Shown here: piece after piece, positions 1 through 12,996 of the stretch
Layout: every line of letters begins with the position of its first letter
Numbering within the stretch: position 1 is the first letter of the stretch
Assembly: GCA_016929595.1 (NCBI GenBank)
Contig: JAFGIN010000088.1
Span: 1 to 36,195 of the forward strand
DNA from: Chitinispirillaceae bacterium
Lineage (GTDB): Bacteria; Fibrobacterota; Chitinivibrionia; Chitinivibrionales; Chitinispirillaceae
Direction of reading: 5' to 3'
Length of the DNA stretch: 36,195 nt
Made by a program: the position numbers and the translations under genes
The notes under the pieces: model-generated
Database searches by the model: none
Seen by the model: the letters and a program-made list of their open reading frames with translations, nothing else
What the model was told of the DNA's origin: nothing

Positions 1-377
1 CAGTTAACCGGAGAAATCATATACGGGTAATCATCAAAGCTGACCGGTGTTACTGCGTCGTGATACATGACAAAATATTAAAATAGGTACAGGTACATGT
101 TGTGTCAAGGTTTTGTAGAGAGGCGAAGACGGAATGCGGAAGATTGTTGCTTTTCTTGATATAATGTGCATGTTTCATCGGGGAGGCAGTAATTATATCG
201 GTATCGGAAAATTTTTGTAATTCAGAATCGATACCGATACCGATACCGACAGCGACCCCGATTGAAAAGGTCCGGGTATCATCTGAAATATCTCATTTCG
301 GCAGTGGACGCTCATTGTCTGAACTGTGATTCTTGTGATTTGTGTGAAATACATGATCTAAGAAATGTGAAAGGTAG
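1..377 (+). repeat. Long direct repeat, copy 1, with hairpin core (copy A)
   Basis: Bases 1–120 are nearly identical to 4909–5027. After a more variable stretch the match resumes at about 153–345, matching about 5096–5280. The copy may extend left of the window. The core is an inverted repeat: ATCGGTATCGG at 197–207 pairs with CCGATACCGAT at 234–244 across a 26-base loop. The hairpin part recurs at 560–788 and 10281–10420. A TATAAT box at 159–164 opens the hairpin unit. I see no conserved reading frame across copies, so this is probably a non-coding dispersed element. Confidence 0.85.
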
Positions 378-434
378 CTATTTTGTGTAAAATGGGGTTC
401 TGCAATTTAACCTTGCGAAGGCACACGCATCATG

Positions 435-484
435 GTGTGGGATCACCGATACTGCGGCGTCCCACTGATCTTGCAAACCCACAC
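435..484. repeat. GTGTGGG…CCCACAC dispersed inverted repeat, copy 1
   Basis: GTGTGGG at 435–441 and CCCACAC at 478–484 form a 7-bp stem. The inner sequence after GTGTGGGATCAC is closely similar to 13388–13438, which has the same arms. This 50-base element therefore occurs twice in the window, both times in non-coding DNA. Its role is unknown; it may be a small palindromic intergenic repeat or a structured RNA element. Confidence 0.6.
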
Positions 485-559
485 CTTCTCGCTCTGCGAA
501 CCATATTTATAAGGAAAAGACAATGGGACAGTTCCTGGATTTATTGAAAATAATTCCTT

Positions 560-788
560 ATATATAATGTACAGGTTTCATTTCGGGCCGGAATTGATAT
601 CGGAATCGCAAAATTTTAGTAATTCATGGACGATACCGATTCTGATACCGACAGCGACCCCGATAATTACTATTAAAAAATACCGTGTATCATTTGAATG
701 TTCTCATTTTGGCGGTAGTCACGCACATTGCCTAAAATGCGATTCTTGTGATTTGTGTGAAATACATGATAAGAAATGCGAAAGGTAG
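560..788 (+). repeat. Dispersed hairpin repeat, copy B
   Basis: This is the second copy of the unit at 153–377. Its stem is ATCGGAATCG at 599–608 with CGATTCTGAT at 637–646. Relative to copy A the T-to-A change in the left arm is matched by an A-to-T change in the right arm, and one pair becomes G·U. The downstream part ends in the same motif (GATTCTTGTGATTTGTGTG, 741–759) as copy A. An open frame of 73 codons crosses it but is not kept in copies A and D. The spacer 789–848 shows nothing else. Confidence 0.8.
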
Positions 789-848
789 TTAGCTCGTGTA
801 AACAGACATTATACAATTACGATCTTAAAACCAATTATCATAAATGTT

Positions 849-2081
849 TTATACCGTTATCGAATTGATAACTTTATAAGGTAAACCACCTGAAGTCGTA
901 ATTACATCGCTTTCGATTTTTACAGTTTGGACAAAAATAAACTCTGATTCAAAACGATCTGTATTAATTACTGGTTTAAGTTTTCCGTCTTTTTCATTTA
1001 TAAGTTTGGTAATTGCATATTTAAAATCATCAACGAATCGCTCAATAACAAAAATTATTCTCTTGTCGTCCGGACTTAATCCCTTGTTGAGATGGTATTT
1101 TCGTGGACAATTACTCGTTGTTTCTGATGTAAGTGCAATATCCCCTGTTGGTCTGAATTGGTGAATGAGACTATTTCTAATACCTTTTATAGCATTCTTA
1201 ATCTTTGAATTTTTATAATTATCCGAAAAAAGGTTATCAATCGCACAAGTAATTCTACTTGAAGAGACACCAATTGCTCCAAGCTCTTTTTGATCAAAGA
1301 AAGAACCGAGTAACTCCAGCCCGCTGCACAATAAAATAAATGCATAGTAATCCATTCCATTTTGAACCATTTTATACAGATCATTTACCAGATTATTATT
1401 AAGAAAATCAAGAATGCTTTTTTTCTGGTTATTGGGGTAAGAAATTTCCGGAGATTCGTTAACCAACAAACTCTCAGGAATAAAATCCTTACTATTCTCA
1501 AAGGGGATATCTGCGGGATATGAAGGTAATGCCAATACTTGTTGTAATAGTTCAGGTTCCTGCGATAGCTTCTTTTTTAAACCGGTTTTTTGTTCTATTT
1601 TTTGCAAATCTTCAGGGTTGCATTTTCTCAATAATTCTTCAAATGTCAGTTTATCTTTAACTGTAAAAAATGATTCCATTTTTGAAAAATATACTATACC
1701 TGTTTTTCCACCTTTTACCAGGTTTGCGAGATTATTGATAGTTCCGGCACTCTTGCCATCCCAGATCAAAAAACCATAATCCGCATCTTCTGCCATCTGT
1801 TCATCTTTAAGCATGTAAAATTTGCGCCCGTTCACTTTGGGCGGAACTTCAATATGTATAGTTGCCCATTTCCCGACATTATTCCTGCATGTTTCACCAG
1901 AACAATAGACATTAACATTTTTATAATTTTTATTTTTTAATTCAGTCTGTATGTTTTTGTCAACCCCGTCAGCATCACCGATCAGTATCTGATATTCTTT
2001 ATCCATTATGTTATTCAGTCGCTCAAGCACCTGTTTGTTCAAGGTTTTGATAGATATGGAGCCGCTGATAAAAATTTTCAT
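849..2081 (-). CDS. SLOG-like nucleotide-sensor domain fused to HEPN-like domain
   Basis: This 410-residue protein has an N-terminal Rossmann-like part (about 1–130) resembling the SLOG/YspA group: an ISGS start, GDADGVD at 35–41, and DGKSAGT at 108–114. SLOG domains bind or process nucleotide-derived ligands, often in bacterial conflict systems. A linker of about 80 residues precedes a helical domain (about 215–365) with RNSLIH, giving R302-x4-H307. That spacing is the catalytic signature of HEPN ribonucleases. The rest of the C-terminus is unassigned. The start is an ATG preceded by AGGAG nine bases upstream. It overlaps the upstream phosphoribosyltransferase stop by one base (TAATG), so the two were probably translated together. 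A sense-and-degrade defence or toxin role is inference; the HEPN assignment rests mainly on one motif. Confidence 0.55.
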   Translation of the reverse strand: MKIFISGSISIKTLNKQVLERLNNIMDKEYQILIGDADGVDKNIQTELKNKNYKNVNVYCSGETCRNNVGKWATIHIEVPPKVNGRKFYMLKDEQMAEDADYGFLIWDGKSAGTINNLANLVKGGKTGIVYFSKMESFFTVKDKLTFEELLRKCNPEDLQKIEQKTGLKKKLSQEPELLQQVLALPSYPADIPFENSKDFIPESLLVNESPEISYPNNQKKSILDFLNNNLVNDLYKMVQNGMDYYAFILLCSGLELLGSFFDQKELGAIGVSSSRITCAIDNLFSDNYKNSKIKNAIKGIRNSLIHQFRPTGDIALTSETTSNCPRKYHLNKGLSPDDKRIIFVIERFVDDFKYAITKLINEKDGKLKPVINTDRFESEFIFVQTVKIESDVITTSGGLPYKVINSITV

Positions 2082-2299
2082 TACCTGTTACTCCTGGTCT
2101 TGGTTAATGTAAGGACACAAACAGTTCCTACATGGGCTTCAGAATACAACAAGTCTGTTGCCACCTCTAATGTTGCACCAGACCGGTAGAGATCATCAAT
2201 TAAAAGAACACGCTTATTAGAAAGATCATATCCAGGATTAAAAAACATTGCATTCAGGAGTACTGAAGATGAACTGTCTTCCGAAAACAACTGCTGAGA
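2081..2299 (-). pseudogene. Phosphoribosyltransferase C-terminal fragment (ComF-like)
   Basis: About 70 codons remain of what should be a protein of roughly 180–250 residues. The visible core is RVLLIDDLYRSGATL, the PRPP-binding loop of type I phosphoribosyltransferases, which bind PRPP and move its phosphoribosyl group. The open frame begins directly after a TAG at 2300–2302, which is the stop codon of the neighbouring beta-barrel gene. There is no ATG; the only possible start is a TTG at 2288–2290 without a convincing ribosome-binding site. The N-terminal half is therefore missing and the junction looks like a recombination scar. The 3' end is intact and overlaps the SLOG/HEPN gene by one base. 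Confidence 0.7.
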
Positions 2300-2659
2300 C
2301 TAAACCTGTATGATTTTGATAAAAATAAAAAGATCATTATTAAATGCATATTTCAAGCCTATACCAGTTCTAAAAACTTTTTTTTCATATAAAATATCTA
2401 AACCGCCAATGTGCGATGTTTTATTATCTCCAATTTGTCTTTCTTGAAAATGTAAAAACGATAACAAGAAAAAATATTCGATTGAAGTTTTATTCTGATT
2501 AATGCCAATACCAGTATTTAAAGAATACCCAAACTGTATTTCAGCATTTTGTAGCATTGTCTCAAAACCTGCACCTGCTTGCAAAGATAATGAAAACAAA
2601 GGAGTTACTAATCCAAACAAAACAAAAGATAATAATAAATGTAGTTTTATCATTTGCAT
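2300..2659 (-). CDS. Small secreted beta-barrel-like protein, perhaps truncated
   Basis: The likely start is the ATG at 2657–2659 or 2651–2653, since the hydrophobic segment (LHLLLSFVLFGLVTPLFSLS) follows at once; a longer frame to 2725 would prepend a hydrophilic stretch that lies in a hairpin. After the signal peptide come alternating strands such as AEIQFGYSLNTGIGI and TSIEYFFLLSFLHF, typical of small outer-membrane barrels. At about 120 residues it is short for such a protein and ends in IIQV, not the usual terminal aromatic residue. Together with the fusion of its stop codon to a broken phosphoribosyltransferase, this suggests that its 3' end was replaced. The function is unknown. Confidence 0.5.
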   Translation of the reverse strand: MQMIKLHLLLSFVLFGLVTPLFSLSLQAGAGFETMLQNAEIQFGYSLNTGIGINQNKTSIEYFFLLSFLHFQERQIGDNKTSHIGGLDILYEKKVFRTGIGLKYAFNNDLFIFIKIIQV

Positions 2660-2690
2660 GTAAGGACTTTTCCTGCAGCTTCTACGGGTT

Positions 2691-2734
2691 GCGCAACGGT
2701 TGCCGTTTGGCTTTTCAAGTGGCAAACCTTGCTC
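2691..2734. repeat. Imperfect bulged hairpin, attC-like half
   Basis: GCGCAACGGTTGCC (2691–2704) pairs with GGCAAACCTTGCTC (2721–2734) along about 12 positions with two extra bases and one mismatch. Such extrahelical bases are typical of integron attC stems. The outer boxes are weak, though: CTATAAC read on the minus strand at 2739–2745 only partly fits RYYYAAC, and no clear GTTRRRY partner follows. It lies between two minus-strand genes. It could be a damaged cassette site or simply a terminator for the gene upstream. Confidence 0.3.
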
Positions 2735-2830
2735 TGTTATAGGCTTTTAATAAGGGGGCTTCCTGTTTTTTGAATTTTACATTTCATATTTCACTTATTT
2801 TAGTTTCTGTAATTATTCCATTCAGGTGTT

Positions 2831-3499
2831 TTAAAAAAGAAAACCCAAAGATATAACATTATGGAAATTAAGATAGTAAATAGTAATATTATCCGACTGG
2901 TTTTTATAAATGTCTGTTAGCGTTCTTGTAATACTGCTTCTTAAGCCGATTTTATACTTATCCCTGATTATATACCCTAATCCAATCCCACCGACGAAGC
3001 TCAATACAAATGAATTAACTTGTTCATTACGGGATGTGATTTCTATCTCTCCGAAATAGTTTGTCCACTCATTTATATAAAATTCACCACTAACTCCTAA
3101 TCTGCCATCCAAGAGAATGTTATTTAACCTATGGTGAACAATCGGAGAAATTTCTAACGAAATAAAGTTCATTTCTTTCTCATATTTGACTTCATCTCCA
3201 GGGTAGGGAAATCCATTAATTTCTTCTATTTCCAGAATCGATTCAGAAATAGATCTCTTTGAGTACTGCAGACCCGAATGTATACCTAAAAATTTTATTA
3301 AATTCTTTTGAAATGTTATTTCAATCGGATTTAGTACATTAACTTTCTGGTATTTAACACTGTTTTCGTGCCATGGCTTATACATTGAAGTATTTATACC
3401 AACTGCAATTCCAATTTCATCTGCTATAGTATTTATTATAAACAAATTCATTATTATAACAATGAAACCAATTTGTCTGGAAAAGTTTAATTTTTTCAT
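2831..3499 (-). CDS. Outer-membrane beta-barrel protein (PorT-like fold)
   Basis: The 222-residue product has a short basic N-terminus and a hydrophobic signal segment (about 10–26). A series of amphipathic strands with alternating hydrophobic residues follows, and the protein ends in SLGFLF, the aromatic-terminated last strand expected of outer-membrane barrels recognised by the BAM machinery. The size fits the eight-stranded 'outer membrane protein beta-barrel' families common in the FCB group. GGA lies about 10 bases before the ATG. Its neighbours are short orphan genes on the same strand rather than an operon with a clear theme. The specific function is unknown. Confidence 0.65.
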   Translation of the reverse strand: MKKLNFSRQIGFIVIIMNLFIINTIADEIGIAVGINTSMYKPWHENSVKYQKVNVLNPIEITFQKNLIKFLGIHSGLQYSKRSISESILEIEEINGFPYPGDEVKYEKEMNFISLEISPIVHHRLNNILLDGRLGVSGEFYINEWTNYFGEIEITSRNEQVNSFVLSFVGGIGLGYIIRDKYKIGLRSSITRTLTDIYKNQSDNITIYYLNFHNVISLGFLF

Positions 3500-3574
3500 G
3501 ATATTTTAATCCTTTTTTGAATGGGTTTGGTTTGTAATATATGTTATACTATCAATAATCTTCTTTGTTTCTTC

Positions 3575-3591
3575 CGGCACACGATGTGCCG
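3575..3591. other. Short perfect hairpin upstream of the barrel gene
   Basis: CGGCACA (3575–3581), a CGA loop and TGTGCCG (3585–3591) form a 7-bp stem about 75 bases upstream of the ATG at 3499. It could be a regulatory stem in the leader of that gene, a terminator for anything transcribed from above, or part of a recombination site. No long T run follows on either strand. Confidence 0.35.
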
Positions 3592-3743
3592 TTCTAGCCC
3601 CCGCAGTAAATAGCCTTTAATTGGGTTGTAGAAAAACCCCATGCTTGTGAAAATGCATTGGGTATGTCAATCATACATTTCGATTCCGTTCAAATTGCAC
3701 CAATTACTTCTTGCGAAACACGTAGAAAAGGATTTTTTTACAG

Positions 3744-3849
3744 TTTCAACGGCCCCGCCCACAGCCGAAGTGTGGTAGTAAAGCGGTGTGCTCGCCGGTT
3801 TACTTACACATTTTGGCTTGGGCGTGTAGTGGATCGTTGCTGGTTGGGC
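3744..3849 (-). repeat. Candidate integron attC site
   Basis: Read on the minus strand, the site begins GCCCAAC (3849–3843, fits RYYYAAC) and ends GTTGAAA (3750–3744, fits GTTRRRY except the last base). Between them lies a long imperfect palindrome: GCCCACAGCC at 3757–3766 with GGCTTGGGC at 3815–3823 (one bulged C), and 3767–3782 with 3799–3814 (12 of 16 positions pair). A length of 106 bases is in the known attC range of about 57–141. The boxes pair only over the conserved GTT/AAC core, as expected within an array. No integrase gene is in the window. Confidence 0.45.
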
Positions 3850-4660
3850 TCTATTACCCCCCCCCCCGCTCTTACTCTTTCCAAACATTTTTTTCCTGAA
3901 CCACATTAATTGATTTTTTTTAATATTAATTGCCGGTACTCTTTTTTATACGACTTTAGAACATTTTATTTATTACCATTTCACACACATCCTTCATAGA
4001 CTTATCATTAAAAACATCAACTTTATATCCGTTAGTAATAATTTCAAAACAAGTATCATGAAAGCAAAAAATATAGTGTTTATCATCTTCAAATAAGGAG
4101 TCATTGTGGTTAGGATGTTTTCGATTCCGATTTAAAATATCCATAATCCAATCAGAATGTATAACTTCAAAAAACCGATATGATTTAAGCCCGAATTCAT
4201 AATATCTATGCCCAATTAATACTTCATCATTTGGCCAACCATCTATGATTTGACAGTAATTATTAAAACTAATACAAGCAATTCCTTTATCTCTTGCATT
4301 ATCTCTGACATTCACATATGTGCCGTCCCAATTTGGATCGGGCATATCTATATAAAACATTAAATACAATTTATATTCATTCTTAATTATATAAGGACAT
4401 GGTGCGCCACTATCCATTTTAACATTTAAATCAATTTCTTTTAAATATTGTTTTTTACTTGGGTCAAGCTTCATAAAATTATTTCTGAATGCATTTTTCT
4501 TTTCGCGATTAACATCTATATTTATTTCTTAATATTTTATATTTGACTTTCAATATTATGAGTTTTATTCTTTTTATATAATATTTTATTCTAATTTTTC
4601 TGGACCATATTTTCCTAAATCCTAATTTTTTCGCGGGGGTCCTATTTCTTTTCCGCCCAA
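3750..4660 (-). mobile_element. Candidate integron gene cassette
   Basis: On the minus strand the unit would start with TTGGGC (after the G at 4661), contain one gene (4474–3956) and end in the attC-like site. In real cassettes the first bases are complementary to the first box of the cassette's own attC, and here TTGGGC pairs exactly with GCCCAA at 3849–3844. The inverted match runs to 11 bases (GCTGGTTGGGC at 3839–3849 and its reverse complement at 4655–4665). A run of 11 C lies at 3857–3867. Without an integrase this would be an orphan cassette; small transposon terminal repeats are the main alternative. Confidence 0.4.
3956..4474 (-). CDS. Hypothetical protein of cassette-type orphan family
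   Basis: This 172-residue protein has no signal peptide or membrane segment and is rich in aromatic residues and histidine. The stretch from GHRYYEFGLKSYRFFEV, through HSDWIMDILNRNRKHP, to HYIFCFHDTCFEII resembles, from memory, a family of uncharacterised proteins found scattered in bacteria. I know no biochemical role for it. It is the only gene between the two attC-like boundaries. No clear ribosome-binding site precedes the ATG. The composition is AT-rich like the rest of this segment. Confidence 0.6.
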   Translation of the reverse strand: MKLDPSKKQYLKEIDLNVKMDSGAPCPYIIKNEYKLYLMFYIDMPDPNWDGTYVNVRDNARDKGIACISFNNYCQIIDGWPNDEVLIGHRYYEFGLKSYRFFEVIHSDWIMDILNRNRKHPNHNDSLFEDDKHYIFCFHDTCFEIITNGYKVDVFNDKSMKDVCEMVINKMF

Positions 4661-4908
4661 CCAGCTATGTCCACCAACGTTTTCAATTGCGAAGTAATTG
4701 AAAACGTTCAAACCATAAATTTCAAACAGTTCGCTATTGCTTCATTTACCACCATCTGGTCCACACATCTTCGGACCATCCCTTGAAAAACCAGAACGCA
4801 TTCAAAAAAATCAGACCTGCAAATTGTAGCTACCGTCTTTTTCAAATTACGACAACTTTTATTGCTGAACATTCATGACCCTATACGGCTGTGATGTCTG
4901 CGTGCATG
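4475..4908. other. Gene-free AT-rich stretch with inverted repeats
   Basis: I see no gene here. It contains the second cassette boundary (GCCCAACCAGC, 4655–4665) and a perfect inverted repeat: the 13-base arms at 4676–4688 and 4696–4708 (AACGTTTTCAATT and its complement) flank a 7-base loop. A smaller stem, TGGTCC at 4757–4762 with GGACCA at 4773–4778, follows. The 4676–4708 hairpin has no T tail, so it is more likely a structural or recombination feature than a terminator. Confidence 0.5.
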
Positions 4909-5290
4909 CAGTTAACCGGAGAAATCATATACGGGTATCATCAAAGCTGACCGGTGTTACTGCGCTGAGATACATGACAAAATATTAAAATAGGTACAGG
5001 TACATGTTGTGTCAAGGCTTTGTAGAAGAAGCGGTGAGGGGAAGATGCGAAGACGGGATGGTGCGAGGATGAGTGAATGCGGAAGAAAGTTGTTTTTCAT
5101 GATATAATGCACAGGTTTCATTGCGGAGCTGGAATTATATCGGTATCGGAAAATTTTTGTAATTCAGAATCGATTCCGATACCGATACCGACAGCGCCCC
5201 CGATTGAAAAGGCCCGGGTATCATCTAAAAAATCTCATTTCGGCAGTGGTCGCTCATTGTCTGAACTGTGATTTGTGTGATGTTAACTCC
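4909..5290 (+). repeat. Long direct repeat, copy 2, with hairpin core (copy C)
   Basis: This copy repeats the window's first 377 bases in the same orientation, with small indels, mainly around 5025–5095. The hairpin arms are ATCGGTATCGG at 5139–5149 and CCGATACCGAT at 5176–5186. A TATAAT box at 5103–5108 begins the unit. Together with copy 1 it brackets the AT-rich accessory block, an arrangement from which recombination could delete or duplicate the block. Confidence 0.85.
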
Positions 5291-5311
5291 CAACGATGTT
5301 TGAATAAAAAC

Positions 5312-5331
5312 AACAGAGTTACGCCTCTGTT
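5312..5331. other. Short hairpin after repeat copy C
   Basis: AACAGAG (5312–5318) and CTCTGTT (5325–5331) form a 7-bp stem with a 6-base loop, followed by TTCC. It could be a weak terminator that separates the accessory block from the operon beginning at 5529. The remaining spacer up to 5528 shows no gene. Confidence 0.3.
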
Positions 5332-5528
5332 TTCCACCAATCATCAAAAAATTTTGGCTGCAGAATACTTGAAATGTAGTGAAAACAGAACACAATCCAT
5401 TCCAAACACTCCCCGTATTCATAAAAAATCAAAAACCTTGAGTAATATGCCGAAAATAACTTAGTTTTATACTGTTATTTCTGCTAAATTATTATGATCA
5501 GTACCTGATTTTTATTAAGGATGCAACG

Positions 5529-6353
5529 GTGAAAAAATATCTGACAGCTTTTACAGTTTTTATTTCTATTTTAAGCATAGGATGTGCCCGCCAACCAGTT
5601 ATTGTTGAAGAAGAGGATGTGCAGCCACAAAAAGCGGTAACTGTACGCAGTGATAATTTCGAACAGTACATTACTGAATCAACGGTTGCAGTTATTGAAT
5701 TCTTCTCAGAAAAATGCGCTGTATGTGCAAGCCTTGCATGGGCTATTGACAGTATAAGTACTATGTTTGGCGATTCAGTATTCGTAGGAGCAAATAACAC
5801 TGATAAAGATACGCTTTATAAAAAGTGTTCAGTACCGGTAGTGCCGACATATGTTTTTTATTACAAAGGTGAAGAAAAAACGCGTCGTTCATTCACAATC
5901 AATGATCCATACGCATTTGATACACTCGTTGAACTTCTTAACAGTACCATGGCAGGAATTTCCGATACAGGAGATACTTCAACACCGATCGATACAACTC
6001 CACCCGATTATCTAACACTTACTTATGAGACTTTTGATTCTGTAGTGATGCGTAATGGTACTACCGCCATGGTATTTTTCCTGTATTCAGGAGGTGCGCC
6101 ATGTATATATATGGATTCGATAATTCGTCAGTTTGCTCCTGCGTTTGAAAATCGGGCAGTTATCGCGAAAGTGGAAGCCTGGGATGAGATGGAACTTACA
6201 GACCGGTATTCTATCGATTTTGTACCTCAGTATCTCTTCTTTAAGGACAGCGTATATATGGAAAATTTGAAACTAACCGGTACTCAGCCCGGAGATATAC
6301 TGGTAAGCGTGCTGGAAGGCCTGCTTGGTCAAAATGAAGCAAGTGCACCATAA
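5529..6353 (+). CDS. Lipoprotein with two thioredoxin-fold domains
   Basis: The start is GTG at 5529, chosen because AAGGAT lies seven bases upstream and a signal sequence follows. LSIGC (lipobox, C19) predicts a membrane-anchored lipoprotein acting in the periplasm. The first thioredoxin domain (about 40–140) has CAVC (C63, C66) and the cis-proline region VVPT (P106), so it can probably form or break disulfides. The second (about 160–270) has GGAPC with only C192 and the matching FVPQY, so its redox site is reduced to one cysteine. A Ser/Thr/Asp/Pro-rich linker joins them. It is the first gene of a plus-strand run with two envelope proteins, and it may act on them. The next gene is cysteine-rich, which would suit a thiol oxidoreductase or reductase partner. 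Confidence 0.75.
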   Translation: MKKYLTAFTVFISILSIGCARQPVIVEEEDVQPQKAVTVRSDNFEQYITESTVAVIEFFSEKCAVCASLAWAIDSISTMFGDSVFVGANNTDKDTLYKKCSVPVVPTYVFYYKGEEKTRRSFTINDPYAFDTLVELLNSTMAGISDTGDTSTPIDTTPPDYLTLTYETFDSVVMRNGTTAMVFFLYSGGAPCIYMDSIIRQFAPAFENRAVIAKVEAWDEMELTDRYSIDFVPQYLFFKDSVYMENLKLTGTQPGDILVSVLEGLLGQNEASAP

Positions 6354-6444
6354 AAATCGTACTTTTGTCATCATTATAAACAAACACGTTCCAGTTTTGT
6401 ATTGAGCATTTGAAATTGTAATCAGGTTGAATGGAGGACTTTTA

Positions 6445-7173
6445 ATGGATATTTGTTGTTCACATGTAAGAAACATGCTTTTTTTACTTATATCGGTGGT
6501 ACTCGTTTCCTTTGGTTCTGATGTTCGAAGCTCACAGGCAGAATTTGAAAGATGTGAATCTACAATGGAACGGGTTCGTCGCGGATTTACCCGATATGAA
6601 GAAACGATTCGCCGGTTAAAAGACCGTGCAGAAAAACAATCCTCAGGTGTAAATGTCGAATCACCCCAGAAAATAACGAAAATGGAAAACGAGTTAGAAT
6701 ACATTCGCGGAAGTATCGATCGTGCCGCAGGACAAGCTGTCAAAATACGTTCCGATATTTCCAATATTAAAGGCCCAACCTGTCCCTCCTGCCTGTCTTC
6801 CAGCATAAATATGTTTTGCCGTAATAGTGAGCGGCTTCTTACAGAGATAGAGGAACACCAGTATGCAGCAGCAACTCTTGAAGAACGACTGAGAAGTTCC
6901 GAAATATCCAAAACTGCATCAGGTAGTGCACCTGTAACAACTGATACCTGGAAAAAACAACGCGCAGTAATAGACTCTCTTCTATCTGAGCATCGGAAAG
7001 GACTTGATTCATGTACCAGAGAGGCCGGAATATCACTCTGGAAACAGTGTACAATAAATCTTAATGCAGCAGACAGCCTGCACAAGACCGGAGCGACACA
7101 ACGACGTGACCAGGCTATCAGGATGGTAGAAATTCTTCTTCCAAAAGCAATTAAAACGTGTTGCGGAGAGTGA
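6445..7173 (+). CDS. Periplasmic coiled-coil protein with conserved cysteines
   Basis: I chose ATG 6445 because GGAGG ends seven bases upstream; an in-frame TTG at 6427 has no such site. The 242-residue product begins with a hydrophobic export segment (MLFLLISVVLVSF). Long charged helices typical of coiled coil follow (about 30–160 and 180–230). Cysteines are frequent, including a CPSC pair near the middle (PTCPSCLSS) and CC near the end, so disulfides are likely. It is one base from the next gene (TGA then ATG), so the two are surely co-transcribed. I do not recognise the family. A structural or scaffold role in the envelope, maintained by the thioredoxin-like lipoprotein upstream, is inference. 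Confidence 0.65.
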   Translation: MDICCSHVRNMLFLLISVVLVSFGSDVRSSQAEFERCESTMERVRRGFTRYEETIRRLKDRAEKQSSGVNVESPQKITKMENELEYIRGSIDRAAGQAVKIRSDISNIKGPTCPSCLSSSINMFCRNSERLLTEIEEHQYAAATLEERLRSSEISKTASGSAPVTTDTWKKQRAVIDSLLSEHRKGLDSCTREAGISLWKQCTINLNAADSLHKTGATQRRDQAIRMVEILLPKAIKTCCGE

Positions 7174-10476: not shown

Positions 10477-11538
10477 TCATTTACCACGAAGTATGACTTT
10501 TGATCCCGAAACATCAGTTAATTCAGTATTTTTTGTTCTTATAAGGTAATATCCACTGCTGTGGCCGCTTTGACTGATATAATTATTCTTCATGCTGGCA
10601 TTGCCCGGCAATATCTTCATGGTAATTTTTCTGCCACTCAAATCGACAACACTGTATCGATTTTCTCTGTTACTGCCGATGTTAAGAGTATTTTTCATCT
10701 CTTTATTCCTGTCATACCAGGTAAATGTTTGAGGGCTGTACAATCTGCCTGTACTATCCAAAAGCAGACCACCAAGATCAGGTCCAAGAGCATATAGTGC
10801 AGCAATATCTGCAGCCGTTCTGGCTGTATTAAAAGTTAACATATATTTCATTTCACCGTTAATACCAACTCTAGGGTCCCCGGCCCCCCATCCACCAACA
10901 CGTAACGCTACGGTATCTACATAAGGTAAGGCATCCGGTATTGTTCCAATGGTTCCAGCCATAGCGCAAGGTATTCCGTTAACGTACACCTTGATACGAT
11001 CAGTATTTATGGTTTCATTCACATTTATAACTGTTACCAAAGAAAACCAGGTATCGGGTTCTGCAGTTCCCACAGGCCGGAGAAAATTTACATACGCAAG
11101 AGAGCCATCACTGATCCTTATTTGAAAAGTATCCGGATGCTGTCTGTGTATTACAATTTTTTTGGTATAAGAAACAACCTTTGCCCAGATGTTTTTTTCT
11201 ACAGAGAACTCTGCCATTCGCATCCAGCATGCAACGGTAAGCTTATTATCTGCAAGGCTTCCAATATCTTTACTGAAAACGATATTACTTTTGGTGCTAT
11301 CAAACCGATAACACTCCAGATCGCTTCTCCATCCGTAGGTCTCAGATACAAGGTTAAATGTTGCAGAAACAGAGGATGGTGCAGCAGGCCCTTTGACTGG
11401 TATGATCGTTCCAGTGTTCTTACTCGCAATGCCCGCAGGTTGTTTAAACAACCCGATTGTCAGATTTGTATCATTAAAAGATCCAACCAGTGCAGACGAT
11501 AATGACGACATCAGCAATAACAACAGTGCAGGTTTCAT
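10477..11538 (-). CDS. Secreted LamG-like lectin-fold protein with T9SS-like C-terminal module
   Basis: The 353-residue product has a signal peptide (LLLLLMSSLSSALVG). A concanavalin/LamG-type jelly roll follows at about 50–245, seen in CWMRMAEF…, WFSLVTVIN…, KVYVNGIPCA and the strand-rich GGWGAG region. The C-terminal part (about 290–353) has YSVVDLSGRKIT and SGYYLIRT, the pattern of type A sorting or fibrobacterial C-terminal modules (xVxDLxGR … GxYxIR). It is probably exported and surface-attached, binding a polysaccharide or glycan. No catalytic residues were recognised. GGAG seven bases before the ATG supports the start. It is monocistronic, divergent from the next secreted protein gene. 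Confidence 0.7.
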   Translation of the reverse strand: MKPALLLLLMSSLSSALVGSFNDTNLTIGLFKQPAGIASKNTGTIIPVKGPAAPSSVSATFNLVSETYGWRSDLECYRFDSTKSNIVFSKDIGSLADNKLTVACWMRMAEFSVEKNIWAKVVSYTKKIVIHRQHPDTFQIRISDGSLAYVNFLRPVGTAEPDTWFSLVTVINVNETINTDRIKVYVNGIPCAMAGTIGTIPDALPYVDTVALRVGGWGAGDPRVGINGEMKYMLTFNTARTAADIAALYALGPDLGGLLLDSTGRLYSPQTFTWYDRNKEMKNTLNIGSNRENRYSVVDLSGRKITMKILPGNASMKNNYISQSGHSSGYYLIRTKNTELTDVSGSKVILRGK

Positions 11539-12006
11539 ATAGTATCTCCAGTTACATTGTCAATCGGTGGTCATGGTATTTCAAGCTTTTGAAATTGTCT
11601 GAAACTGAAGACAACATACAAAACGAAACCTCTGTTTTTGGAGCGGACAGATGATGATTCTGTTTAATAACCTCTATAACACCTGATATAATATATCCTG
11701 CCCTTGATTAAAATCAAGTAATTGTTGTACTATTGTTGATTCCTCTGTTTTGAACATTTTTTAAGCCACAATGAAAATGTTCTTTCCCCCTTCTCACCAA
11801 AAACAGCATCAGTACTCGCATGATTATTACGCCGAAGAACTTTTTCAGTATATTAATCTTATGTGAGCGCTATGTTATCAATTATTTTTAAAGAGATTCA
11901 GGCTTTTGAAAAACAGTTGTAAAACAACTGCTGAGTGGAGTACAATTTCAATTCATAGATATATTGTTTACCTGTTTGTTTTAACCCTGAAAAAGGAGCA
12001 TAAGTT
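11539..12006. promoter_or_regulatory. Divergent spacer with several small palindromes
   Basis: No gene is visible in this 468-base spacer between two divergent secreted-protein genes, so both promoters must lie here. Palindromes: TTTCAA-GCTT-TTGAAA (11579–11594), CTTGAT…ATCAAG (11703–11718) and CAGTTGT-AAA-ACAACTG (11914–11930). They could be operators or leader hairpins; none has a T tail. The gene at 12007 has a strong site, AAAAGGAG, just upstream. I cannot assign −35/−10 boxes with confidence. Confidence 0.45.
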
Positions 12007-12996
12007 ATGTGCATATTAAGAAGTGCACTAATAGTTACGACAACGTTACTGACAACAGTATTGAGTGCAGCAGACATTGATTTCAATTCAACACTCATAT
12101 TCGATGATTTTGATAACGCCTGGACTGATCCCCCTAACAGAAGCTACCTGGGTGCAGCAAAAGGATATGTAGAAGAGGGACAGGTGTATAGCGGTTCGTG
12201 GGGGTACTGGTGGACTTATACTGATGATACCTATGTTTTAAGTGGCAGCGGTGATACTCTGACCGAAGACAATATGGAAGAGATGGTTGAAGATGGAGCG
12301 ATGCATGTAAAATTCAAAGTCGAGCAGAGCGAAGAAGAGTATCCGGGAGCGGAGATAGGTTGTAACCTTTTTGGTGAAAAAGATTATCTGGATCTCTCCA
12401 AGATGACCAGTGTCACTGTAAAAGCAAAAGGTACTGGTAAAGTAAGAATCAGTTTTCAGTCAAAGAATATCAAAGATGCTGGTGACTGGGGATACTGTGG
12501 TTTTCTGGTTACCCTGACATCAGCCTGGAAAGTTACCACTGTCCCAGTGGCAGATTTAGAACCAGCCCCCTATTCAAAATCAGAAGATAATGTAACATGG
12601 GCTCAAAGCAAGACTGGAATATTTGGATTCACAGTTAAAACCGAATCATCCAAGGATGCCGAACTATATCTTGACAGCATCGTTTTCAATGGTATGAAAT
12701 ATTCCGATCTCATAGATCCTACAAGTACTCTTCCATCCCCAATCGTACGTTCTGCAAAGGCACCGTCAATCACTTTCAGCAATACAGCAATTACCTATTC
12801 ACTCACTGTACCGCGAAATGTATCATTTGAAATTTTTGATATTAAAGGTACCTGTGTAAACCGTTTTTCAGATAATTGCCAGACAACAGGAATCCGCACT
12901 GTCGCAATTCCGCAATCGTTATCAAATGGAAATTATCTTGTAAAAATGACAGCGGGTAACCAGACAAATTCCTACCCGTTTTTTATCGTGAAATAA
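12007..12996 (+). CDS. Secreted carbohydrate-binding-like protein with T9SS-like C-terminal module
   Basis: The 329-residue product has a signal peptide (about 1–21) and then a beta-sandwich domain opening LIFDDFDNAW, like the CBM11/CIA30 group of galactose-binding-like folds. Aromatic residues that could stack on sugars are frequent (GSWGYWWTYTDD). The conserved end of the sandwich is LYLDSIVFNG (about 226–235). A linker leads to a C-terminal module (about 250–329) with VSFEIFDIKG, LSNGNYLVKM and FFIVK, matching the sorting-type pattern of the previous gene. It has no glycosidase domain, so adhesion or carbohydrate capture is likelier than hydrolysis. A strong AAAGGAG site supports the ATG. 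Confidence 0.7.
   Translation: MCILRSALIVTTTLLTTVLSAADIDFNSTLIFDDFDNAWTDPPNRSYLGAAKGYVEEGQVYSGSWGYWWTYTDDTYVLSGSGDTLTEDNMEEMVEDGAMHVKFKVEQSEEEYPGAEIGCNLFGEKDYLDLSKMTSVTVKAKGTGKVRISFQSKNIKDAGDWGYCGFLVTLTSAWKVTTVPVADLEPAPYSKSEDNVTWAQSKTGIFGFTVKTESSKDAELYLDSIVFNGMKYSDLIDPTSTLPSPIVRSAKAPSITFSNTAITYSLTVPRNVSFEIFDIKGTCVNRFSDNCQTTGIRTVAIPQSLSNGNYLVKMTAGNQTNSYPFFIVK

Follow-up and report, generated by a model that had tools for sequence, protein, structure and literature searches.

A probable integrase-less cluster of cassettes from a divergent integron-like system

The minus strand of positions 2673-4678 likely carries a short, partly decayed cluster of cassettes that has no integrase and belongs to a divergent integron-like system of the phylum. 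This system is probably independent of IntI. The window, that is, the whole stretch of DNA that we analyzed, is 36,195 nucleotides long and constitutes an entire contig (C156); the draft genome to which it belongs has 6.6 Mb and is 95% complete. As judged from sequence comparisons, the lines of evidence are a family of attC-like sites, the tandem arrays that they form, two kinds of complementary boxes at the cassette ends (R boxes and outer boxes), array genomes in which IntI was not detected, and four array heads occupied by recombinases other than IntI.

The first cassette (positions 3751-4678, minus strand; 928 bp) extends from the G of GTTGGTGG at 4678 to the last base ahead of the next GTT (3750). 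Searching upstream with a cassette's own end gives plausible starts even where no previous site is detected, and position 4678 is the best match to the end of this cassette (score 13.6, compared to 13.3 for the best of 60 shuffles). Because this search points to G4678, the cassette spans 3751-4678, CCACTAC is its R″ box, and GTTGGTGG (4671-4678, minus strand) is the partner of that box. The attC-like site 1 (3744-3832, minus strand) consists of the R″ box CCACTAC (3826-3832), a hairpin core, and the R′ box GTTGAAA (3750-3744). Its R″ box, which would normally end in AAC, is decayed. The strand folds into a single extended hairpin with bulges (−23.5 kcal/mol, z = −2.9, with 1 of 200 shuffles equally good), which confirms the bulged palindrome reported in a preliminary description of this DNA. 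No Rfam match was detected near site 1, and no relatives of the hairpin core were found in viral contigs and plasmids.

The 11-base inverted match at the ends of the cassette, also reported there, is real as well (on the forward strand, GCTGGTTGGGC at 3839-3849 versus GCCCAACCAGC at 4655-4665; 11 of 11 positions complementary, with 805 nt between the arms). However, its GCCCAAC and GTTGGGC motifs are not the R boxes that they were taken for, but second, outer inverted repeats at the cassette termini. Read on the minus strand, these outer boxes are GCCCAACCAGC at the cassette end (3839-3849, within a conserved GAGCCCAACCAGNAACGATC) and GCTGGTTGGGC at the cassette start (4655-4665). The claim that the cassette start complements its own attC box therefore holds for CCACTAC and GTTGGTGG, in which the complementarity is partial, and does not hold for the 11-base match, which is the outer pair. 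The sole gene of the cassette (3956-4474, minus strand) encodes a 172-amino-acid orphan, as previously noted: its product has no match in Pfam or PADLOC and no relative in 167 genomes of the phylum or in viral contigs.

The attC-like site 2 (2673-2749, minus strand; R″ CTATAAC) has the same orientation as site 1 and is located just beyond the 3′ end of the gene of cassette 2 (2831-3499, minus strand), which lies between the two sites and encodes an OMP_b-brl_2 beta-barrel protein (Pfam PF13568; 30.3 bits, cutoff 27). A search for convincing complementarity between the start and the end of cassette 2 found none. No recombinase or integrase was found on the 36-kb contig, in agreement with the earlier proposal of a cassette without an integrase. 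Given that site 1 has no AAC, cassette 2 has no matching start, and the contig has no recombinase, the window looks like a decayed, integrase-less remnant. Site 1, having lost its AAC, is presumably inactive.

Beyond the window, a copy of the palindrome is found on contig C20 of the same genome, and the palindrome plus its flank CGATCGTTnCTGGTTGGGCTC is found in another genus. Aligned copies from six genomes exhibit compensatory base changes at 13 of the 23 predicted pairs. A model of these aligned copies (R2) finds sites in 10 of the 167 phylum genomes, and the later addition of an eleventh genome (G039) brings the count to 11/167. On several contigs, from several genomes, two to four sites follow each other in one orientation with genes between them; tandem arrays are also present on contigs C130 and C121 of the window's own genome. 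Other copies are therefore found both in this genome and in its relatives. The clearest array (G057:C133) has sites at positions 36, 1311, 2876, and 4216, interspersed with genes, and a neighboring array gene in a relative encodes a Fib_succ_major domain, which points to Fibrobacterota as the probable phylum. Every genome with arrays is a draft, and many of the arrays run up to the end of a contig. A search for literature linking integrons, attC, and Fibrobacter found no relevant paper.

The sites of this family share the hairpin consensus ACAACAG..GCCAnAATG..CACTnCGGC..ACCCGTT. By eye, a one-base bulge in the 3′ arm, a candidate for the unpaired base of L′, is noted in several sites and also in the alignments. 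We built a further model (R3) from 23 sites, leaving out those of the window and of contig C20; the AAC of the R″ box is invariant among these training sites. With filters off, R3 detects the two sites of the window at 3738-3839 (minus strand; 42.9 bits, E = 1e−7) and 2673-2749 (minus strand; 25.9 bits, E = 7e−4), while the third-best match reaches only E = 0.5. The window itself is thus a tandem arrangement of two minus-strand sites with the gene 2831-3499 between them. Some of our tests were designed post hoc; the search of the window with R3, the control with canonical cassettes, and the upstream search for cassette starts were run later.

To represent canonical attC sites, we used a model (R1) of 24 attC sites that adjoin IntI genes at loci from many phyla; it is a stand-in for the IntegronFinder models and not those models themselves. 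R1 recovers held-out arrays beside intI on the correct strand. With filters off, it finds nothing significant in the window (best match 8.1 bits, E = 3.7, located elsewhere than site 1); it also has no significant match in the 6.6-Mb genome and 0 matches at E ≤ 10 in 191 kb of related array contigs. Conversely, R3 has 0 matches in 369 kb around IntI genes. On the basis of the R1 results for the window, the genome, and the related arrays, we rejected the reading of these sites as canonical attC. From the integron-like cassette of the preliminary description, the attC-like palindrome 3′ of the gene and the inverted ends are retained and the canonical attC is dropped: the attC model gives no match, yet other sites of the divergent family do exist in the genome. 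The authors of IntegronFinder mention clade-specific attC models (PMC9024848).

The search for an IntI gene that was proposed together with the cassette also gave a negative result, as the genome of the window has no IntI above the TIGR02249 cutoff; its best recombinase matches leave positions about 180-237 of that profile uncovered. None of the array genomes, all of which are drafts, has an IntI at E ≤ 1e−60. Instead, in four genomes, including that of the window, a tyrosine recombinase is encoded directly ahead of the first cassette and in the same orientation. The distance from the recombinase stop codon to the cassette GTT is about 119 nt in G039:C377, 133 nt in G015:C380, 299 nt in the window's own genome (C121), and 440 nt in G037:C49, and an A precedes the GTT at all four array heads (4/4). 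For G015, the boxes at the two cassette ends were paired by eye and no hairpin core was detected, and the start of the C121 cassette is borderline (13.2, compared to a maximum of 14.6 in the shuffled null). Several arrays have no recombinase within reach. The recombinases of G004:C27 and G004:C5 are not counted among the heads because they face their array from the far end. A 439-amino-acid recombinase on contig C39 of the window's own genome is at most a possible array head and was not counted as one: it is followed by GTTATAGGCAAT..GCCTATAAC, but a search for sites of the family there found none.

The four head recombinases fit the NF040815 profile of tyrosine recombinases better than TIGR02249 and leave the IntI-specific region of the latter uncovered. 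They do not form a single clade, and several have an additional N-terminal part. NF040815 recombinases are XerA/XerC-like, and NCBI gives them the name "site-specific tyrosine recombinase/integron integrase"; we know of no action of NF040815 recombinases on cassette arrays. Counts of NF040815-type genes prove little, because XerC and XerD match the profile and nearly every genome therefore has them. We infer that the head recombinases are probably the integrases of these arrays.

Alternatively, the same arrays could depend on an ordinary IntI, either lost from the drafts or supplied by other strains, with the sites representing a distant clade of attC. IntI above the TIGR02249 cutoff is present in 13 of the 167 phylum genomes, one of them in the same family as the genome of the window. 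Given that the array genomes are drafts and that their contigs often break at arrays, the missing IntI could be due to assembly loss. We nevertheless consider this explanation rather unlikely, for the genomes with IntI and the genomes with arrays do not overlap at all among the 167, R1 and R3 each fail on the contigs of the other group, and a different recombinase occupies the four array heads. IntI integrons of the same phylum, for example those of G003, G025, and G031, have attC sites beside intI, and those sites, unlike the ones described here, match R1 or the canonical pattern and not R3.

The integron-like reading is further supported by complementarity between the two ends of the same cassette. 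The R″ box of an integron site is complementary to the opening bases of the cassette to which that site belongs. Across 19 neighboring pairs of sites in our arrays, the R″ box of a site agrees with the reverse complement of the R′ box of the previous site at 3.9 of 6 variable positions, compared to 2.4 in other combinations (0 of 20,000 random draws as good, P < 5e−5). Examples of full matches are GTTATGTGC, GTTGTGTGC, and GTTGTTTGC. Beyond the R box and a short spacer of unequal length (often CAAT versus TGT), there is a second match of about 11-18 bp, with a mean local score of 11.6, compared to 6.2 (standard deviation, 1.4) when the two ends come from different cassettes (0 of 5000 draws as good, P < 2e−4). 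In canonical integron cassettes (n = 31), the R-box signal is kept (3.5 of 4), whereas the outer-box signal is absent (7.0 versus 6.7). The idea that the outer motif spreads alone was discarded after a pattern search, the matches of which were mostly coding or due to chance.

The 11-base match of the window, taken alone, is weak evidence and not decisive: there are 13 inverted pairs of this length in positions 2500-6500 (5.1 expected; up to 16 in 100 shuffles) and 4 within positions 3600-4800 (0.4 expected). Its significance comes from the recurrence of this arrangement in other cassettes. For each of 10 cassettes, the predicted fold of the circle junction is more stable with the cassette's own start than with every other start (in the window, −50.5 kcal/mol, compared to a mean of −34.1 kcal/mol with other starts). 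These folds restate the complementarity and add nothing to it, as such predictions favor long complementary ends by construction.

The same comparisons make it very improbable that the sites are dispersed REP-like or terminator hairpins that lie 3′ of genes by accident, with the 11-base match being due to chance. Some copies are indeed solitary, such as that on contig C20, and 11-base inverted matches are fairly common in this AT-rich stretch, but independent hairpins would not be expected to have boxes at one end of a cassette that complement those at the other. A transposon or MITE with terminal inverted repeats, which the preliminary description had kept open on account of the inverted ends and which would also fit a palindrome copy elsewhere in the genome, is scarcely credible because the terminal repeats are cassette specific, varying among cassettes and matching only within one; moreover, the units are arranged head to tail, a hairpin separating one from the next, and a search for a transposase in the window's unit found none.

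The closest known elements are chromosomal integrons and CALIN elements, clusters of attC sites that by definition have no integrase (PMC9024848). As in these elements, cassettes are arranged in tandem and in one orientation and usually have a single gene, a palindromic site 3′ of that gene, R″ and R′ boxes with AAC and GTT, and a start that complements their own R″ box; a recombinase is found close to the head, and there are CALIN-like pieces without an integrase. Unlike in those elements, the sites are missed by the 24-site canonical attC model and have a hairpin consensus of their own, the cassettes carry a second, outer inverted box, and the recombinase has no IntI-specific region and is oriented as the cassettes are.

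We propose that a cassette of this system would be a mobile, circle-forming unit, with the order of a GTT start box, an outer box, usually one gene, an outer box, R″ ending in AAC, a hairpin core, and the next GTT. After excision, the start of the cassette would adjoin its own hairpin within the circle, so that the R boxes and the outer boxes would pair and a long hairpin could form from one strand. Exchange at G|TT by a tyrosine recombinase would then link the circle with an attI-like site at the array head or with the site of another cassette, presumably with the folded single strand as the substrate. We lean toward the view that the arrays represent a second kind of integron, in which recombinases without the IntI-specific domain would act on hairpin sites extended by cassette-specific outer boxes. 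In such integrons, the stem of the circle would be much longer than that of the integrated site, which would make excision and insertion unequal. According to the current view, recombination of cassettes as folded single strands depends on IntI with its additional domain (PMC9024848). Should the arrays be run by XerA/XerC-like recombinases that have no such domain, then either the trait has originated repeatedly or it does not require the domain. The outer boxes would represent a structural rule that is novel for recombination sites. Because the arrays have their own recombination sites, outer ends, and apparently a different recombinase, standard integron searches probably miss them, and surveys with standard models would probably overlook them as R1 did.

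The cassette boundaries agree with an exchange at G|TT. Cassette 1 begins at the foot of a 13-bp perfect palindrome (4676-4708, minus strand) at its upstream edge. When the flanks are joined across the cassette, the pairing increases from 13 contiguous positions to 21 of 26 positions, while only 2 of the outer 13 positions match when the cassette is present. In G019, a site adjoins a truncated IS end at the GTT box. The pairing of the joined flanks hints at an insertion at G|TT beside a hairpin, the case of G019 is likewise no more than suggestive, and the palindrome is possibly a decayed target or a site 0.

Several features were noted in and around these loci. A 340-base direct repeat (83% identical; positions 1-340 and 4909-5281) flanks the accessory region 1-4900 of the window, and the contig starts within its first copy. 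A CGGTATCGG-rich palindromic repeat at positions 196-263 and 562-680 occurs genome-wide, matching at dozens of places spread over many contigs. Positions 849-2290 (minus strand) carry a truncated phosphoribosyltransferase gene with a weak PADLOC match to ShosT/PsyrT that overlaps a 410-amino-acid gene, and the pair looks like a broken defense-type toxin-antitoxin system. In the array G057:C133 (locus L185, positions 231-4073), the cassette genes encode an Mrr-type nuclease and products with weak AbiGi and Cas13-ApeA matches, on the basis of which some cassettes may carry anti-phage genes. Behind the 439-amino-acid recombinase on contig C39 (L243, positions 10774-12800), there are two related genes, each preceded by the repeat GCCTATAACAGGT; GCCTATAACAG is common to that repeat and to site 2 of the window. 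Finally, three separate arrays of the window's own genome, on contigs C214, C121, and C130 (L227, L228, and L191), share an identical TGCGGCC..GGCCG.TTGTTAATAAATAGGATAG after their last site, which is perhaps a common array end.
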